IMG/VR virus record: IMGVR_UViG_3300020377_000009
Coordinates: 1 to 45,492 of that record
DNA: 45,492 nucleotides
Source of the DNA: a virus
Strand: one strand, 5' to 3'
Shown here: in pieces, positions 3,801-45,492 of the stretch
How the letters are laid out: every line of letters begins with the position of its first letter
How positions within the stretch are numbered: the stretch's first letter is position 1
Program-made: the position numbers and the translations under genes
Notes under the pieces: model-generated
What the model saw: only the letters and a program-made list of their open reading frames with translations
What the model was told of the DNA's origin: nothing
Databases searched by the model: none

Positions 3801-4175
3801 TTATCCACCAAATATTAATGCGTTAAGAAGTGAGTTGCCATCATCAGTTACATTATCATTTGCAATTAATGTTGTCACTTCAGATTTTGTATGATGATTT
3901 GCGTTTATAAACTCACCTTCGGTTACTATAACAATCTCATCATTTACTGTTGAGCCTGATCCAAGTGTTACTGTGTTAGCGGTCTGTGTAAAATCAGATG
4001 CATCTAACCTTACACCATTCATGAATACATGAATTCGAGTTGTTGCGCCGATGTCTAGTGACTGACCATTTACATCTGCACCAGTAAAAGCAGTTTGACC
4101 AGCTGTTGCGGTATACCTATGAATGACGCTTGTTTTTATTATGCTGTCATTTGGATCTCTACCTATGTATGCCAT
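3801..4175 (-). CDS. Tail-fibre protein with one beta module
   Basis: 124 residues. It opens MAYIGRDPNDSIIKTS, then holds a beta module (HRYTATAGQTAFTGADVNG, TRIHVFMNGVRLDASDF, NTVTLGSGSTVNDEIVIV) like that at the N-terminus of the 711-residue fibre protein (TFTATAGQTAFTLTKK). The C-terminal 40 residues are polar and end NSLLNALIFGG. Its start overlaps the stop of the gene at 4175-4510 by one nucleotide, so the two are translationally coupled. A fibre component by context. Confidence 0.55.
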   Translation of the reverse strand: MAYIGRDPNDSIIKTSVIHRYTATAGQTAFTGADVNGQSLDIGATTRIHVFMNGVRLDASDFTQTANTVTLGSGSTVNDEIVIVTEGEFINANHHTKSEVTTLIANDNVTDDGNSLLNALIFGG

Positions 4176-4514: not shown

Positions 4515-5663
4515 TTATCCTAATGCTATTGCTAACGCCACCGCATCATCTTCTGGATTAAATGCGAGGTCTGTTTTAGTTATTGTGCCGTCTACTATTT
4601 TTGCTGATGTAACACTGTTATCCGTTGGCACATTAAAAGACGCACCAGCATAATATCTTACAACAATCGCCGCTCCATTTGCCGGAGCTGCAGTGAAAGT
4701 AAGTGTTGTTCCACTTGCCGAGTATGAAGAAGTTGGTGTTTGTAGAACACCTGCAACTGTAACAAATAAATGATTTGCTGTCAATACACTTTGTGTAAGA
4801 GTATAAGAAGTTGTTGATCCGTTACCGGTATATGTATCTGTTTGAAAATTACTACCAGCTAATTTATTAAATGTTATACTTCCATCAGAAGGAACACCTG
4901 TAGTATTTACCGGTCCGTAAATTACTAAGAGTTCAACTTGATTTGCAAGATTGGAAGTAAGTGTAATTGTTTTAGTTGCACCGGTCAGGTTCATTGAGTA
5001 GTGTGTACCGGGATCCTGAATAACACCACCGATAAAAACTAAAGATCCATTTTCAGACCCAGGATCTCCTGTTAAATTATATGTTGCAGTTGATCCATTA
5101 CCTGTAAAAGTATCACGAGTATATGATGAAGCAGCAAGCTTGGCCGCTGTTACTGTTCCATCGCCTGGTGTAACTGTTGAAGCAACTGGTGTTGTACCAA
5201 GAACTTCTATCCTTGATGTATTTAATGGCGCACTTGTAAATGCAAGTGTTGAGCCTGATATCGTAAAGTTTGTTCCGGGATATTGAATAACACCGTCAAC
5301 AAATACTAATACATCGTTTTGTCCTGCGTAAGTCTGTGTAAGTGTAAAGTTTGTTGTTGTACCATCACCTGTAAATGTATCTCTTGATGATTGACCTGTA
5401 ACAGCTGCACCAAACTCAAGTGCATTACCTGCAGCATTAACCTGTACAATTTTTCCACCTTGGCCTGAGAATGAAGAAGGAGAATCTGATAAACTAAGAA
5501 ATGCACCGCCAGAAGCTGCAAAAGTTAAATTACCATTACCGTCAGTTTGAATTACCTGACCGCTGGTACCATCCGCTGTAGGGAATGTGAGTGTGGTTGT
5601 TGATCCACTTAATGTGTTTACTTCTAGACCATGTTTGGCCAGAAATTTTTTCTTAGTTGCCAT
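4515..5663 (-). CDS. Tail-fibre shaft protein with three beta modules
   Basis: 382 residues. After an N-terminal segment (KKKFLAKHGLEVNTLSGS, then a Gly/Ser region) come three successive modules of about 85 residues. Each starts DTFTG(D/N)G(S/T)T or DTYTGNGSTT, continues with (L/V)FVxVxGV(I/L)Q and ends in a strand plus a (D/N)GS(I/V)T-AK linker (about residues 95-165, 180-260 and 270-350). The last 25 residues are acidic then hydrophobic. It is the first gene after a late promoter at 5704-5711, with a strong GAGGAAGG ribosome-binding site. A shaft or adaptor role is inferred from the repeats. Confidence 0.65.
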   Translation of the reverse strand: MATKKKFLAKHGLEVNTLSGSTTTLTFPTADGTSGQVIQTDGNGNLTFAASGGAFLSLSDSPSSFSGQGGKIVQVNAAGNALEFGAAVTGQSSRDTFTGDGTTTNFTLTQTYAGQNDVLVFVDGVIQYPGTNFTISGSTLAFTSAPLNTSRIEVLGTTPVASTVTPGDGTVTAAKLAASSYTRDTFTGNGSTATYNLTGDPGSENGSLVFIGGVIQDPGTHYSMNLTGATKTITLTSNLANQVELLVIYGPVNTTGVPSDGSITFNKLAGSNFQTDTYTGNGSTTSYTLTQSVLTANHLFVTVAGVLQTPTSSYSASGTTLTFTAAPANGAAIVVRYYAGASFNVPTDNSVTSAKIVDGTITKTDLAFNPEDDAVALAIALG

Positions 5664-5703
5664 TTACCTTCCTCTGTTTCACTTTCCACAGAAGTGTTTA
5701 ATC

Positions 5704-5711
5704 TATTTATA
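5704..5711 (-). promoter_or_regulatory. T4-type late promoter TATAAATA
   Basis: Exact TATAAATA on the minus strand in the 87-nt gap between the genes ending at 5751 and starting at 5663. The predicted leader of about 35 nt ends in GAGGAAGG before the ATG. CTTCTGT in the leader can pair imperfectly with the ribosome-binding region, so a weak hairpin over the site is possible. Confidence 0.7.
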
Positions 5712-5750
5712 TAGTTTAATCGTCCGGATTTTGTTTTCCTTTAAACATAT

Positions 5751-5975
5751 TTAGTCACCTACTACTTCAGCAGTGTTACCATCTGCAACCCAAGTTAAGT
5801 AATTTTCCCAATCCATATTTGATTCATCATTTGGAATATCTGGGCCGGGCTCATATTTGTTATCACCGACTTTAATCTTTGCACGAACAGAAGTTTCAAT
5901 TAACTTACCATCTTCATCTTTGTGTTTGTAATATCCGTAATTATCAAACCCAGCGACTCTATTAATAATTGTCAT
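5751..5975 (-). CDS. Small acidic hypothetical protein
   Basis: 74 residues, rich in Asp, Glu, Asn and Tyr (NRVAGFDNYGYYKHKDEDGK). It has no recognised domain. A strong AGGAG ribosome-binding sequence precedes the ATG. It sits between two fibre genes on the same strand and may be a fibre accessory or chaperone, but nothing in the sequence shows this. Confidence 0.5.
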   Translation of the reverse strand: MTIINRVAGFDNYGYYKHKDEDGKLIETSVRAKIKVGDNKYEPGPDIPNDESNMDWENYLTWVADGNTAEVVGD

Positions 5976-5984
5976 AATATTCTC

Positions 5985-7259
5985 CTATATCTCAGCACTA
6001 AATTCCATACCACATGAATAGAAATCTTCTGTATTCGTTCCAGCATCTTTAGACATTCCAGTAACTTGTCTTTCATTTCTATTAATTGTTCCATGTGTTT
6101 CTTCACTTCCATTCCAATAAGTAATTCTACTTGCAGTTCCACCATTCCCTCTGGTTGTTACTGTAGGGCCGGCTCTCATCTCTACTGGAAAGACAGCATT
6201 TAAAGGAGCCATACCATAGTTTCCAGTACCAATAAAATAAATCATACCATTATATGATTGGTTAAACGACCATCCATATGTATACGAGTCATGTCCAGCA
6301 CCATAAGTGTGGAAATAAAAGCGTTGACACTTTCTTAGTTCTTCCTCAAAAGTACGGTGTTCAAAATCTGATACTGTATCTGCAACCTCTAATTGACAGC
6401 CCGTCATGTACCACTTATTATTAACAGTTGATGTAAATGTATTCAATTGATGACCACCAGCAAAATGAGTATTGCCAGGCGAACCAGCTGCCGTACCCCA
6501 CTGATTTGCATAAGTTCCACTAGTATATCCAGAACCAGCCATTAAGAAAAAGTTTAATCTCAAACCTATACCATTATCATTGTTGATAGTAGCATGACCA
6601 GATGTTGCAACCTCAATTGTTTTCTTTTCCCATGTATTAGCTGAATTGATAGTGTATGATGCAGTTTGATATTTGTTTGCATCTTGAATCCAGAAAGTGA
6701 CACCATATGTTCCAGTTACATTTGTACCAGTTGCTTTTACCCAAAAAGAAAGTTGTAGTTTCTTGGGAGAACTACTTCCATAACAAGCATCCAGCATATC
6801 TCTTGCCTCAATGGATTGATAATATCTACAATATTCATCAGATGCAACTGCACTTTCAGCAGCATTAACATTTATAAGATGAGAATGAGAGAAACCCATT
6901 CCGTCTGGAGTATCAGTACTTTGTGAAATTTGAAGTGCAAGTTGGTCTTGATTATAAGTATCAACTACCCACCTATCTAAAACAGTTGCGACAGTTTGAG
7001 CAGATGATGGGCCTCTTTGAGCAACCCTAGCATCACCATTGTGAATTTTATTTCTACGACCAAGTTGTACACTATCAGGATTTATTTTTCCACCAGTTAC
7101 TGCATTATTAGCAAGTTTTGCAGTTGTGATAGAACCATCAGCAATATCTGCAACAACTGCACCACTTGGAATTTTTGCAGCTGTAACTGCGTCATTAGCA
7201 ATTGCCGCGGTTGTTATTGAATTATCTGCATAAGCTTTTAATGAAAGTTTACGTGGCAT
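5985..7259 (-). CDS. Tail-fibre receptor-binding protein with jelly-roll-like domain
   Basis: 424 residues from the ATG at 7259, which overlaps the upstream stop by one base; a start 48 nt upstream is less likely. Residues 1-75 carry repeats of the type SITTAxIAxDAVTAAKI, typical of trimeric fibre stems. Then comes RRNKIHNGDARVAQRG, a motif that in many phage fibres opens a carbohydrate-binding domain. The domain (about 85-320) contains QSIEARD, LQLSFWVKATG and TWEKKTI, and closes with CQLEVADTVSDFEHRTFEEE. A C-terminal beta region of about 100 residues may be the variable tip. Sugar binding is inferred from the family, not shown. Confidence 0.7.
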   Translation of the reverse strand: MPRKLSLKAYADNSITTAAIANDAVTAAKIPSGAVVADIADGSITTAKLANNAVTGGKINPDSVQLGRRNKIHNGDARVAQRGPSSAQTVATVLDRWVVDTYNQDQLALQISQSTDTPDGMGFSHSHLINVNAAESAVASDEYCRYYQSIEARDMLDACYGSSSPKKLQLSFWVKATGTNVTGTYGVTFWIQDANKYQTASYTINSANTWEKKTIEVATSGHATINNDNGIGLRLNFFLMAGSGYTSGTYANQWGTAAGSPGNTHFAGGHQLNTFTSTVNNKWYMTGCQLEVADTVSDFEHRTFEEELRKCQRFYFHTYGAGHDSYTYGWSFNQSYNGMIYFIGTGNYGMAPLNAVFPVEMRAGPTVTTRGNGGTASRITYWNGSEETHGTINRNERQVTGMSKDAGTNTEDFYSCGMEFSAEI

Positions 7260-18748: not shown

Positions 18749-19322
18749 TCTCTCGAGCTCCCTTCTCGAGTGCCAGATCTCTTATCTCCTTGAGGTATTT
18801 TTCATTATGTTCAAACACGATACAGTGTGCTCGAGCCATGCCGCCACCGAGAGTAAATGATTCCATGTTCTCGAGTACCTTATCGAGCTCCGTCTTCCTT
18901 CGGTATCTTGCATGCATCTCGTTGTCGATACCGTCTATGTCAAATGTAATCTTCGAGAATACATCATACTCGTTCATGTTTCTTCCGAGTGTATACCACC
19001 ACATCGGCTCTCTCAGGCTGCCGTTTGTGTTGAGAGAGATCTCAACATCATTCTCGAGGAAGTAGTATATGATCTTGTCTATGTCTTTGACCATCATTGG
19101 GTCACCCCAAGTACCGCATATTGTGGCCTTGAAGATGTTCGAGCCGGGTGGATACGCTCTCTTGACACGATCGAGATTCCACATGACGTTAGGTATCCAT
19201 ACGTTTTTGTTCAATCCGCCGGCATACCAGTTGGTGCGATTGCACTGAGGGCAGCCCGCGTTACAGTATGTACTCAAATCGAGATACACCGTAAGCTTCT
19301 CAATGTCCCTATATAATGTCAT
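18618..19322 (-). CDS. Radical SAM enzyme, N-terminal part (frameshifted gene)
   Basis: About 234 residues from the ATG at 19322 (an in-frame ATG 12 nt upstream exists). LSTYCNAGCPQCNRTN is the radical SAM C-x3-C-x2-C motif, followed by TICGTWGDPMM in place of GGEP and SLNTNGSLRE. This matches radical SAM/SPASM proteins that need a C-terminal cluster domain, which lies in the next frame (18119). Here the frame ends at GGG TAA. The N-terminal part overlaps the two-domain glycosyltransferase gene by 14 nt. The substrate is unknown. Confidence 0.75.
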   Translation of the reverse strand: MTLYRDIEKLTVYLDLSTYCNAGCPQCNRTNWYAGGLNKNVWIPNVMWNLDRVKRAYPPGSNIFKATICGTWGDPMMVKDIDKIIYYFLENDVEISLNTNGSLREPMWWYTLGRNMNEYDVFSKITFDIDGIDNEMHARYRRKTELDKVLENMESFTLGGGMARAHCIVFEHNEKYLKEIRDLALEKGAREIDFQKSNRKFGHDGGMEFRFKDENGQQAILRKSTYEIAETLSG

Positions 19323-21030
19323 CGAACCACTCAAATCGTTTATTCATGACGTGATAGAACGCCGCGTTGGCCTCACGAACCTGTTCTTTATTCTGCTTCC
19401 AGTTTGGACACTGAAAATGCCAGAACTTATTGTCCAGATTCTCACAGTGCACGTTGTTTGACTTGACTCGATACGACATGACGGTCTCATTATCGTACCC
19501 GAATGACTTCTGGATCTGTGGAATATACATGGAAAACTCGTCTTCTCTGAGCTCGGTCATCTTCTTGATCAGTCCCTCAAAATCATTGAAGTAACCGAGC
19601 TCGTCCATTTGCCGCCGTGAGGCACCAAATATTCCGGTATTATATACATCATTCTCACCCTCGATATCATCATCCGACAGGAGTGCATGTGTATTCCAGT
19701 ACTTTGCTGACGGTGATCTGTAGTGATATACATAATCTTCACCCTTCCAGTTGCTCAAGTCCAGTGCTTCTTTACTTGCCCAGTCTTTAAGTGTAGCGTC
19801 ATAGTTACAAAAGATCGCGTTCTGACAGTTAAAAGCGTCAAAGAATGATACGTCGGTGTTGACTATTACATCAAAATCCATATAGAGTACGTTATCATAT
19901 TTCTTCGTGAGTTCCTCCATGCACCATATCTTATAGAAATTTACCACATTATATTCACTCATGTCAGTCATGCTCTTCATTGTTGCACGAAATATTTGGT
20001 ATTTCTCATCATTCTGGAACAGTAAATAGTCCGCACCGATGGATCTTGCGTACTCACGCCTGTTGTTTTCCAGCCTGTCAAAGTACTCCAGGAAGTTGAT
20101 TCTGGCCCTCTCGTTCTTATCAATATCGTCACCAGTAAAGTTACCGGCCGGCTGCTGGAGTTCGGGTGGTATCTCTACGTGCAGCGAGTATATGGCGTTT
20201 CTCTTGTTTCGGTAGTACGTGTCAAAGTTTTTATTGATCATGTGTAGGAATTTTGCATCACTTAGGTGCTTCTTGAGGTCCGTTTTTTCCCTCGTAATGG
20301 GGTCACATACAATACGATTGTCTAATCTTGTGTGCCAAGTACGGTCATCATGCTGTATTTCTACCTTACTTTCTATCAACGCCGCGCTAAAAAAAGCCTC
20401 ATTATTGTGTGTAAAATACTCATAGTCACGGCCAATCTTCCTTGCATATCCCTTTCCCTGTATAAAATCGTCTGTCTTTTGTATGTAGCCGGGTAGTTTT
20501 TTCATAAAATTTATCTTCTTTATGACCTTACCTGATCCACCCATGACGGCGGTATTGACTATGTCATTCTCTTTTCCTGACAGCAAGGCCTTCGCCAACA
20601 GATATTTTATTGTAGGTGTACGAGTTGTCTTATACAGCTGGAAATTTTGGTGATGTATGATATCATTCTGGTCTATACACCAGATTTTTTTTGAGAGATC
20701 TACCTCATCAAAAAAATTCTTATCGGTTTTTGGAATGACATCAAAATCGAGATATAAAACATTGTCATATTTTTTACCGAGTTCTTCAAACATATAAATT
20801 TTATAGAGGTTTACGGCATCATATATCGTATTGATCGAAAATTTATGTTGAAATTCTTGGATGTATCCGATCTTATCAAAAAAAATCCACTCGGCACCAC
20901 ATTTTTTTGCATATTCTTGTTTACATTTCAGTAAATCTTGTTTATATTCTAAAAAAGAAAGTAAATTATTTTTTTCTTTAGGCCCTTCAAAATCAGGCTC
21001 TACGAATACACTAAAAATTATATTATTCAT
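19309..21030 (-). CDS. Two-domain glycosyltransferase-like protein
   Basis: 573 residues with two homologous halves, about 1-275 and 280-573. Each has a start of the type FLEY-x(n)-(R/K)xEYAxxxGAxxxxF, then NxYKI(Y/W)xxEEL(G/T)KKYDNVLY(L/M)DFDVI with the DxD-like DFD (D95/D97 and D384/D386), a further (K/S)ENDIVNT or ENDVYNTG-type block, and a closing tryptophan-containing strand. DxD binds the metal and nucleotide sugar in GT-A enzymes. Acceptor and donor are unknown. Base composition rises from about 30% GC at the 5' end to about 50-58% at the 3' end, which suggests joining of two divergent copies. Confidence 0.7.
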   Translation of the reverse strand: MNNIIFSVFVEPDFEGPKEKNNLLSFLEYKQDLLKCKQEYAKKCGAEWIFFDKIGYIQEFQHKFSINTIYDAVNLYKIYMFEELGKKYDNVLYLDFDVIPKTDKNFFDEVDLSKKIWCIDQNDIIHHQNFQLYKTTRTPTIKYLLAKALLSGKENDIVNTAVMGGSGKVIKKINFMKKLPGYIQKTDDFIQGKGYARKIGRDYEYFTHNNEAFFSAALIESKVEIQHDDRTWHTRLDNRIVCDPITREKTDLKKHLSDAKFLHMINKNFDTYYRNKRNAIYSLHVEIPPELQQPAGNFTGDDIDKNERARINFLEYFDRLENNRREYARSIGADYLLFQNDEKYQIFRATMKSMTDMSEYNVVNFYKIWCMEELTKKYDNVLYMDFDVIVNTDVSFFDAFNCQNAIFCNYDATLKDWASKEALDLSNWKGEDYVYHYRSPSAKYWNTHALLSDDDIEGENDVYNTGIFGASRRQMDELGYFNDFEGLIKKMTELREDEFSMYIPQIQKSFGYDNETVMSYRVKSNNVHCENLDNKFWHFQCPNWKQNKEQVREANAAFYHVMNKRFEWFDDII

Positions 21031-43382: not shown

Positions 43383-43976
43383 ATGGCAGAGTCTTTATTT
43401 CAAAAATTACAATTTCAAGCATTTCGTGGAGGAATACCTCCAAGGACAGAAGAGTCACGTGAATGGTTCCGTGATAAACTTAAAACAATGAGGACTGTAA
43501 ACAGACAGTCTTTAATAAGAGATTCACAACTTGTTCGTACAACACGTCCAAGGATGGGTGAAATGTTGATGTTCTTTTATGACCCAAAGAATAAACAAAC
43601 ACTTCCATATTATGATACGTTTCCTTTAATTATCATGGTTGAAAAAGCACCAGGTGGTTTTTATGGTTTAAATCTACATTATCTACCTCCTGCTTTAAGG
43701 GCAAAATTCTTTGACGCTCTTATGCAAACTATGACTAATCAAAGATATGATGACACTACAAGATTTAAAGCAAGATATAGAATACTTAAAAGTGTAAGGA
43801 AACTGAGATTCTTTGAGCCGTGTTTTAAACACTATTTAACACAGCATATCAAATCAAGAATAGCAAAAGTTGAAGCACCTGAATGGGAAATTGCTCTATT
43901 CATGCCAACACAAAGATTTAAAAAGCAGAGAGTCACTGCCGTTTACAAAGACTCTAGAAAGGCAATATATTCATGA
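43383..43976 (+). CDS. Conserved T4-like virion protein of unknown role
   Basis: 197 residues, basic. TTRPRMGEMLMFFYDPKNKQ, TLPYYDTFPLIIMVEKAPGG and FYGLNLHYLPPALRAKFFDA form a conserved core in T4-like marine phages; a C-terminal helical part (YRILKSVRKLRFFEPCFKHY, WEIALFMPTQRFKKQ) follows. Adjacent to gp4 it could be gp2-like (DNA end protection) or a tail completion factor, but no certain T4 counterpart is recognised. Translation probably starts on a leaderless mRNA. Its stop overlaps the next start (ATGA). Confidence 0.5.
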   Translation: MAESLFQKLQFQAFRGGIPPRTEESREWFRDKLKTMRTVNRQSLIRDSQLVRTTRPRMGEMLMFFYDPKNKQTLPYYDTFPLIIMVEKAPGGFYGLNLHYLPPALRAKFFDALMQTMTNQRYDDTTRFKARYRILKSVRKLRFFEPCFKHYLTQHIKSRIAKVEAPEWEIALFMPTQRFKKQRVTAVYKDSRKAIYS

Positions 43977-44617
43977 CGTATCCCGCCAATATTGACTCGC
44001 TTAAATCTACTATAGGTAGAAGAACGGGTCTAGCAAAAGCAAATAGATTTGCAGTCTATATGAACTTACCTCTTGTCAGTATTGACGTAGGAAGTATCAT
44101 AACGAATGTAGTTTCTGGTAATTTCAATCCATTACAGGTACTCAATGATCCGAGAGATATTTCACTTCTTTGTGAAACAGCGCAGTTGCCTGGAAGGTCT
44201 ATTGCTACAAATGAGTATATGACAAATATGAAAGCTAGAAAAATACCGTATGGATACATCAGTGATGATGTAGCCTTTACGTTCTTGCTTACTGGAGATT
44301 ATTATATCAAAGATGTTTTTGATAAATGGCTTTCTAAAATAGTTGATCTTGATAGAAAGACTTTACACTACAAAGATGATTTTGTATCTGAAGTAGAGAT
44401 ACAACAGCTAAATGATCAAAATATTCCGGTTTACTCGTGTAAACTGCGTAAAGCATTTCCTATAAATATCAGTACGGTGGATTTAGGAAATACAAATGAA
44501 AACACCGTGTCAAGAGTAACAGTCACATTTGCATATGATGACTGGAGAGAAACAAGTAGCACTGGCTCTGCCATTGCAGCAAAAATTGGAAATGAAATTT
44601 TCAATAGATTTTTTTAA
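43973..44617 (+). CDS. Tail-tube-fold protein (gp54/gp19-like)
   Basis: 214 residues. GLAKANRFAVYMNLP near residue 20, LCETAQLPGRSI (about 63-74), VAFTFLLTGDYYIKDVFDKW (about 94-113), YKDDFVSEVEIQQLN and VSRVTVTFAYDDWRE form the pattern of tail-tube subunits: start strand, PGR-type loop, tube strands and closing strand. Next to gp26 and distant from a sheath gene, it is more likely the tube initiator (gp54-like) than the main tube protein gp19. It overlaps the upstream gene by 4 nt. Confidence 0.6.
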   Translation: MTYPANIDSLKSTIGRRTGLAKANRFAVYMNLPLVSIDVGSIITNVVSGNFNPLQVLNDPRDISLLCETAQLPGRSIATNEYMTNMKARKIPYGYISDDVAFTFLLTGDYYIKDVFDKWLSKIVDLDRKTLHYKDDFVSEVEIQQLNDQNIPVYSCKLRKAFPINISTVDLGNTNENTVSRVTVTFAYDDWRETSSTGSAIAAKIGNEIFNRFF

Positions 44618-44630
44618 GGATTATTAAAAT

Positions 44631-45341
44631 ATGAGCTTACCTTTAGTAAATACCGCAAAGCATACCGTTAAGTTGCCGGGTTGCGGTTTGAATGTAGAGT
44701 ACCGACCTTTCTTTGTTAAAGAACAAAAGATACTACTGCAAGCGACTGAAAGCGAAGATCCAGCACAAATCGCAAGTGCAACAAATGATATGGTAAAAGC
44801 CTGCACATTTGAAAAGCTTAATCTGGAAGATATTACATCAACTGATATTGAATATCTACTACTTAAAATCAGAGCTAAGAGCGTTGGTGAAACCGCCAAA
44901 ATACAACTTAAATGTTCACATTGTGAGCATCCAAATGAATATGAACTTAATTTAGATTCAATTGAACCTACCGGTGAAAATGCAGATGAACAAAAAGTTC
45001 AAATAAATGATTCAGTTGGTGTTTGTTTTAAATTACCTACAGTTGGTAGACTAAAAGAATTTATGCAGATATCAGGAGGAACTGCTGCTGATACTCTAAT
45101 TGCGACAATGGGCGCATCTGTAGATTATGTGTATGATGCAGATGCTGTATATCCTTCAAGTGATCAAACACCTGAAGAGATTGTACAGTTTTTAGAATCA
45201 CTTAACTCAGAGCAATTTAAAAATGCACAAGGTGCCTTTGATAATTTTCCAAGGCTTATCCATGATGTTGAATTTAAATGTTCTAAATGTAACGAAGAAA
45301 CACAATTACAATTAGGAGGTATTGGCGATTTTTTAGGGTAG
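44631..45341 (+). CDS. 26: Baseplate hub assembly protein gp26
   Basis: 236 residues (T4 gp26: 208). The start (LPLVNTAKHTVKLPGCGLNV, YRPFFVKEQKILLQA) is typical of gp26-like proteins. KCSHCEHP (C95, C98) and KCSKCNEE (C217, C220) make a possible zinc-binding pair. The ribosome-binding sequence is AAGGA, 12 nt upstream. The frame ends at TAG immediately after GAT TTT TTA GGG, where a -1 slip would extend it into the gp51 frame. gp26 and gp51 assist hub assembly in T4. Confidence 0.8.
   Translation: MSLPLVNTAKHTVKLPGCGLNVEYRPFFVKEQKILLQATESEDPAQIASATNDMVKACTFEKLNLEDITSTDIEYLLLKIRAKSVGETAKIQLKCSHCEHPNEYELNLDSIEPTGENADEQKVQINDSVGVCFKLPTVGRLKEFMQISGGTAADTLIATMGASVDYVYDADAVYPSSDQTPEEIVQFLESLNSEQFKNAQGAFDNFPRLIHDVEFKCSKCNEETQLQLGGIGDFLG
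45329..45335 (+). other. -1 ribosomal frameshift slippery site T_TTT_TTA
   Basis: TTTTTTA in the exact register X_XXY_YYZ relative to the gp26 frame (GAT TTT TTA), two codons before the stop. After a -1 slip the next codons read AGG GTA GCT and continue open to the window end. A small hairpin (CATG A TTCT CTAG AGAA CATG, 45350-45370) lies 15 nt downstream. Confidence 0.7.
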
Positions 45342-45492
45342 CTCTTTCTCATGATTCTCTAGAGAACATGATTCGGATGAACTTTGCATTACTATATTAC
45401 CACAAGTGGTCACTTACAGAAATAGAAATGATGGTTCCATGGGAAAGAGAAATATACGTAGCTTTATTATTAGACGCAATTGAAGAACAAAA
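45335..45492 (+). CDS. gp51-like hub assembly protein, -1 frame, cut by window edge
   Basis: Read in the -1 frame from the slippery site this gives RVALSHDSLENMIRMNFALL, then YYHKWSLTEIEMMVPWEREI and YVALLLDAIEEQ, open to the last base. The helical WSLTEI(E)xMxPWERE(I/V)YxALL pattern resembles the product that follows gp26 in T4-like phages (gp51). An ATG at 45368 could also start it independently, with only a weak AGAG upstream. Whether it is made mainly as a gp26 fusion cannot be told from the sequence. Confidence 0.6.

Follow-up and report, generated by a model that had tools for sequence, protein, structure and literature searches.

A conserved slippery heptamer with an upstream Shine-Dalgarno-like element at the gp26/gp51 junction of T4-like phages, consistent with programmed -1 frameshifting

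How is gp51 made in a phage whose gp51 frame overlaps the end of gp26 in the -1 register: as a protein of its own, or as an extension of gp26? The question is raised by the last kilobase of the window analysed here, that is, the whole stretch of 45,492 nucleotides (positions 1-45,492) of the IMG/VR virus record IMGVR_UViG_3300020377_000009, which comes from a marine T4-like phage. The features concerned, in map order, are the following.

43973..44617, + strand: tail tube protein-like gene directly upstream of gp26 (phrog_45 tail tube, E = 3.3e-35)
44631..45341, + strand: gp26, 236 aa, short form, TAC-N-like (PF12322 T4_baseplate, E = 4.5e-53; phrog_150, E = 1.5e-54)
45314..45320, + strand: Shine-Dalgarno (SD)-like AGGAGGT within gp26, its GGAGG core 9 nt from the heptamer; candidate stimulator (anti-SD energy, codon bias)
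45329..45335, + strand: slippery heptamer T_TTT_TTA in the gp26 register (T_TTT_TTN in homologous loci)
45339..45341, + strand: gp26 stop codon TAG, separated from the heptamer by one sense codon, GGG (read from the sequence)
45335..45492, + strand: gp51 tail in the -1 frame, ended by the window end (phrog_634; fused frame against phrog_150)
45349..45371, + strand: weak hairpin of the original prediction, not counted as part of the signal (stability, pairing)

The gene at 44631-45341 belongs to the gp26 family, with a score of 180.6 bits against the PF12322 profile (curated cut-off 24.5). Its 3' end reads TTA GGA GGT ATT GGC GAT TTT TTA GGG TAG, and the TTT and TTA of the heptamer are codons of gp26, which puts the heptamer in the X_XXY_YYZ register for slipping by -1. 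Reading would then go on as TTT TTT AGG GTA GCT CTT TCT CAT GAT and onwards in a frame that is open from 45293 as far as the window end. The heptamer, its register and its nearness to the stop are thus present at 45329-45341 as originally described, and the observation of a frameshift signal at the gp26/gp51 junction is confirmed. Chance is excluded as its source because the in-register heptamer T_TTT_TTN is rare in the window (7 occurrences among the 15,123 codons in ORFs of 100 aa or more, only one of them at a gene end) and because motif, register and position are kept in nearly all homologous loci. Four of the seven occurrences lie inside a single 572-codon ORF on the - strand (approximately 19312-21030), which may be a spurious antisense frame. 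The gp26 of the window (44631-45341) also carries two CxxC pairs, CSHC and CSKC, which suggest a zinc ribbon; many cyanophage homologs are without one or both of them.

Conservation was assessed in 353 loci encoding both proteins, assembled from gp51 searches (with queries that do not include the heptamer), gp26 searches and annotated phage records. Because the gp51 sequences diverge too much in alignment for scanning with a pattern, single sequences served as queries; the resulting set is biased to phages resembling these queries, mostly marine, and KVP40, T4 and KP27 recovered few viral contigs. Removal of identical sequences left 283 unique loci, and 209 representatives remained below 90% identity. 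The gp51 frame is -1 relative to gp26 in 349 of the 353 loci; three of the four exceptions are in-frame fusions (T4, KP27 and CC_R7), and the fourth (L225) keeps the FF-x-stop end with a frame broken upstream. The original prediction had suggested aligning the loci of related phages, and this comparison bears it out: 281 of the 283 unique loci retain T_TTT_TTN, with C, T, A or G as its last letter, in register and close to the stop of gp26. One of the two loci without it (L077) was rejected as a real exception, its gp26 showing a deletion-like truncation at the junction. The heptamer lies 0-2 codons from the stop, except in 13 unique loci where it lies 8-9 codons before it (L127, L136, L144, L145, L147, L149, L160, L165, L171, L184, L205, L209 and L249); in these, gp26 and gp51 coding sequence overlap in two frames over about 25 nt.

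What is conserved at this site, residues or nucleotides? All 281 loci use TTT for the first Phe, as compared with 73% TTT and 27% TTC elsewhere in the same genes, and the codon preceding it ends in T in every one of them, even though the residue there may be S, D, A, N, T or F. At its second codon the heptamer has TTC, TTT, TTA or TTG and hence encodes Phe or Leu (one entry shows CTT, the script having picked the last F-F/L pair). Because of this invariant TTT and of the T-ending codon before it despite varied amino acids, the constraint, as judged from codon choice, acts on the nucleotides of the heptamer rather than on the amino acids. The 209 representatives display the same codon pattern; since the loci are related, no P value is claimed for it.

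The product of the -1 frame matches phrog_634 ('baseplate hub assembly catalyst') with an E value of 1.5e-19, so that the gp51-like protein originally judged plausible in the frame open to the window end is indeed recognizable, and the gp26-gp51 fusion does so with an E value of 2e-26. The -1 product also matches the C-terminal part of the gp26 profile itself (phrog_150, positions 236-276 of 282), a first hint that gp26 and gp51 may belong to one protein. The conceptual frameshift product aligns to phrog_150 in a single stretch covering positions 5-276 of 282, with 223 bits versus 186 bits for gp26 alone. The record of the window breaks off within gp51, which is complete (to position 3881) in contig L007, whose gp26 is identical.

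Start codons for an independent gp51 are unevenly distributed. The stretch leading from the heptamer to the conserved gp51 block lacks ATG, GTG and TTG altogether in 107 unique loci and contains GTG or TTG, but not ATG, in 22 others; 152 of the 281 relatives do have an ATG there, usually 15 nt past the start of the heptamer, and could initiate gp51 separately. The window has its first start codon past the heptamer at ATG 45368, already within the conserved block. A start codon at the N-terminus of gp51 is lacking in Aeh1 and phiWae14 as well: in Aeh1 (L019, 3190-3399) gp51 is encoded, unannotated, in the -1 frame behind T_TTT_TTC, and in phiWae14 (L018, 2501-2683) it follows the same heptamer in the same frame and is annotated from an internal start. 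Downstream starts are also used in the gp51 annotation of Melnitz and Milchi. A study of cyanophage core genomes noted that gp51 of cyanophages and vibriophages seems to be without its first ~200 residues, and that gp51 is seemingly absent from Aeh1 (PMC3037559). Frameshifting from gp26 would explain both puzzles; in the literature searched, parts of it available only through citing papers, we found no such explanation for the 'reduced' cyanophage gp51 or the 'missing' gp51 of Aeh1.

The heptamer has a strongly conserved companion, the AGGAGGT stretch upstream of it, which the original prediction did not mention. In the window its duplex with the 3' end of 16S rRNA has an energy of -11.5 kcal/mol. 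In 208 relatives the mean anti-SD energy at this place is -7.5 kcal/mol, versus -1.4 kcal/mol at phase-matched sites in the same genes; the stretch is mostly GGAGG(G/T), lies about 10-15 nt before the heptamer, and is less pronounced in some distant lineages (KVP40, Aeh1 and DLP6). The Glu codon at this place is GAG in 82% of relatives versus 29% elsewhere in gp26, and by this preference the stretch is more than a by-product of the Leu-Glu-Gly motif. We considered it as a ribosome-binding site for gp51 and rejected this, since the usual ATG lies about 24 nt off, which is too far, and since a start codon 4-13 nt past the element occurs in only 3 of the 209 representatives. In E. coli dnaX, a tandem slippery heptamer (A_AAA_AAG) is combined with an internal SD located about 10 nt before it and a strong stem-loop downstream. 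The window resembles it in the tandem heptamer and in the spacing of the upstream element (9 nt), and differs from it in the heptamer sequence, T_TTT_TTA, and in having no conserved stem-loop. SD stimulators of -1 frameshifting have been described (PMC4066793), and the element in gp26 would, by its energy, position and codon bias, stimulate slippage in the same way.

A small hairpin downstream, starting 13 nt past the heptamer, had been included in the predicted signal, and this part did not hold. When the window and relatives were folded, its stability was no better than that of shuffled sequences (z = -0.33), and over 12 aligned loci 62% of cells were paired, the pairing being not conserved and lost in most relatives. 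The hairpin was thus rejected as a conserved frameshift stimulator, and the upstream SD-like element is the better candidate for this role.

Comparison with T4 and its closer kin gives a natural counterpart of the proposed fusion. Among 21 named phage genomes scanned, the 16 that carry the heptamer each have one PF12322 gene, and the heptamer is found in 16 of the 18 phages with one gp26-family gene; T4, KP27 and CC_R7 have two PF12322 genes and no heptamer. It is also absent from the gp26 end of seven more two-gene phages (PF12322 was used to check all seven gp51 proteins and two of the gp26 proteins). In T4, Pet-CM3-4 and Moon the Phe-Phe pair is kept at the end of gp26 but is coded TTC TTT or TTC TTC after GAG or GAA. 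Both T4 gp26 (208 aa) and T4 gp51 (249 aa) match PF12322 end to end, and T4 gp51 carries the gp51 tail after this region; they are homologous to the proteins of the window, T4 gp26 corresponding to the short form and T4 gp51 to the long one. T4 thus has two genes, with no heptamer at the homologous place, whereas the window has one pair and a frameshift signal. The single-gp26 T4-like phages (cyanophages, KVP40, Aeh1 and others) share the heptamer and register of the window and, in most cases, the SD-like element, weaker in KVP40 and Aeh1; many of them have an ATG past the heptamer and are annotated with two genes, in contrast to the clade of the window, which has no such ATG. The two remaining single-gene phages, Cygsa01 (L022, 2400-2610) and Vibrio phage 1.255.O (L028, 3110-3324), have no tandem heptamer; their gp51-like ORF lies in the -1 frame with a TAATG overlap and a T_TTC or T_TTT tetramer, and they possibly have a different way of expressing the long form.

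Based on the conserved frame, heptamer and codon choice, on the lack of a usable gp51 start in the clade of the window and on the natural fusion in T4-type phages, the joining of gp26 and gp51 by programmed -1 frameshifting, in the manner of the lambda and P2 chaperones, is strongly supported at the level of sequence, as originally predicted. We consider gp26 and gp51 to be one gene pair from which programmed -1 ribosomal frameshifting yields a short and a long chaperone form, with a probability of roughly 0.88. According to this scheme, the majority of ribosomes would stop at the TAG at 45339 and produce gp26, the short form. A minority, paused where the 3' end of 16S rRNA pairs with the AGGAGGT inside gp26, would slip from T_TTT_TTA to TTT_TTT and go on into the -1 frame; the resulting gp26-gp51 fusion, the long form, would have ~293 aa and ~33 kDa, with the predicted junction peptide GIGDFFRVALSHDSL. 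Both forms would act as lambda G/GT-type chaperones, binding the tape measure protein and recruiting subunits of the tail tube, and T4 and its closer kin would obtain the same forms from separate genes, 26 (short) and 51 (long, by in-frame fusion). The occurrence of slippage at T_TTT_TTA and its efficiency are what we infer from these conserved features.

Two other ways of expressing gp51 have to be weighed against this scheme. If gp51 were translated separately, from a start of its own or by ribosomes reinitiating past the gp26 stop, and were never fused to gp26, the ATG found soon past the heptamer in many relatives, where separate gp51 genes are annotated, would be its start, and the TAATG of Cygsa01 and Vibrio phage 1.255.O, which lack the heptamer, would fit as well. 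Such a model leaves the 107 loci without any start unaccounted for, places the SD-like element at the wrong distance from the usual ATG and gives no role to the nucleotide conservation of the heptamer; the fusion is moreover a single ORF in T4-type phages. We therefore regard separate initiation as very unlikely. That the frame is changed not by the ribosome but by RNA polymerase slipping on the T run is hardly probable: the site is indeed a run of T, with eight of them in some relatives (Melnitz), but most loci have six T's followed by C, which is short for polymerase slippage, and both the X_XXY_YYZ register and the anti-SD element, which fit ribosomal slippage, would be needless.

A further alternative accepts the fusion by frameshifting and concerns what it does, namely a structural or catalytic role in the baseplate hub rather than that of a tape-measure chaperone. 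It is suggested by the database names ('baseplate hub', 'hub assembly catalyst'), by some genetic work placing gp26 in the hub and by the weak fold match to HK97 gp13. Against it stands the arrangement itself, since a short/long pair made by -1 frameshifting and adjoining the tail tube gene is characteristic of tail assembly chaperones. In T4, gp26 and gp51 are classed among the hub assembly chaperones, and gp51 is needed yet absent from the particle, in the same review that reports the genetic placement of gp26 in the hub (PMC3004832). The T4-like TAC identification is also credited, by papers citing it, to Vladimirov et al. 2022. A hub role is thus unlikely, and gp26/gp51 are most likely a tail assembly chaperone pair of the lambda G/GT type; for the phage of the window we infer this function from gene arrangement and homology. 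Downstream of gp51, contig L007 has a long Gly/Ala-rich ORF (4890-6707), a tape measure candidate by position that gave no match to PHROG profiles; relatives have a long gene downstream too, in some annotated as tape measure-like. The AlphaFold model of the window gp26 (pLDDT 88) has the HK97 tail assembly chaperone 2ob9 as its best biologically sensible solved-structure match in Foldseek, a weak one (rank 4, E = 0.34, prob 0.47, TMt 0.40), and its matches in a viral library are baseplate hub proteins and hub assembly chaperones from many phages; a sequence search of solved structures with the gp26 profile returned nothing meaningful.

The parallel with lambda gpG/gpGT and P2 E/E' lies in a short ORF with an overlapping -1 ORF and a slippery site near the stop, and in a place next to the tail tube gene and before what may be the tape measure region. 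The slippery sequence of lambda G/GT is G_GGA_AAG, as opposed to the T_TTT_TTN with an upstream SD-like element of the window; the likeness drawn here is one of arrangement. The original prediction knew of no description of such a device for gp26/gp51, and this novelty does not stand: T4-like tail assembly chaperone genes are credited to Vladimirov et al. 2022 (Virology 566:9-15) in PMC10885494 (PRFect) and PMC12846349 (Adele), the latter citing that work for poly-T -1 signals in these genes. Because of these credits the gp26/gp51 frameshift belongs to a known kind, as far as the citing papers tell. A direct description of it was not found in the literature searched, where Vladimirov et al. 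is represented through those citations, nor was one of a conserved upstream SD-like element; what may be new is this stimulator, the making of tail chaperones by frameshifting being already known.

The names gp26 and gp51 in hundreds of T4-like records are thus indicated to be two products of one frameshifted gene, which current records annotate as separate or missing genes. Should the SD-like element stimulate slippage, it would provide a natural system, and a simple one, in which to tune the ratio of short to long chaperone. We give about even odds to a broader proposal: that the bipartite signal (internal SD plus T_TTT_TTN) is ancient, sets the short/long ratio outside the T4 clade and was lost there when an in-frame long gene took over. 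If so, the same short/long system could be compared under translational and transcriptional control, and the known device would gain a new element, an SD stimulator within a tail chaperone gene. Another frameshift proposal for a T4-like phage is found in the annotation of Citrobacter phage Moon (L369, 1950-3141), where a 'GT-like fusion protein' joins gp27 and gp28.
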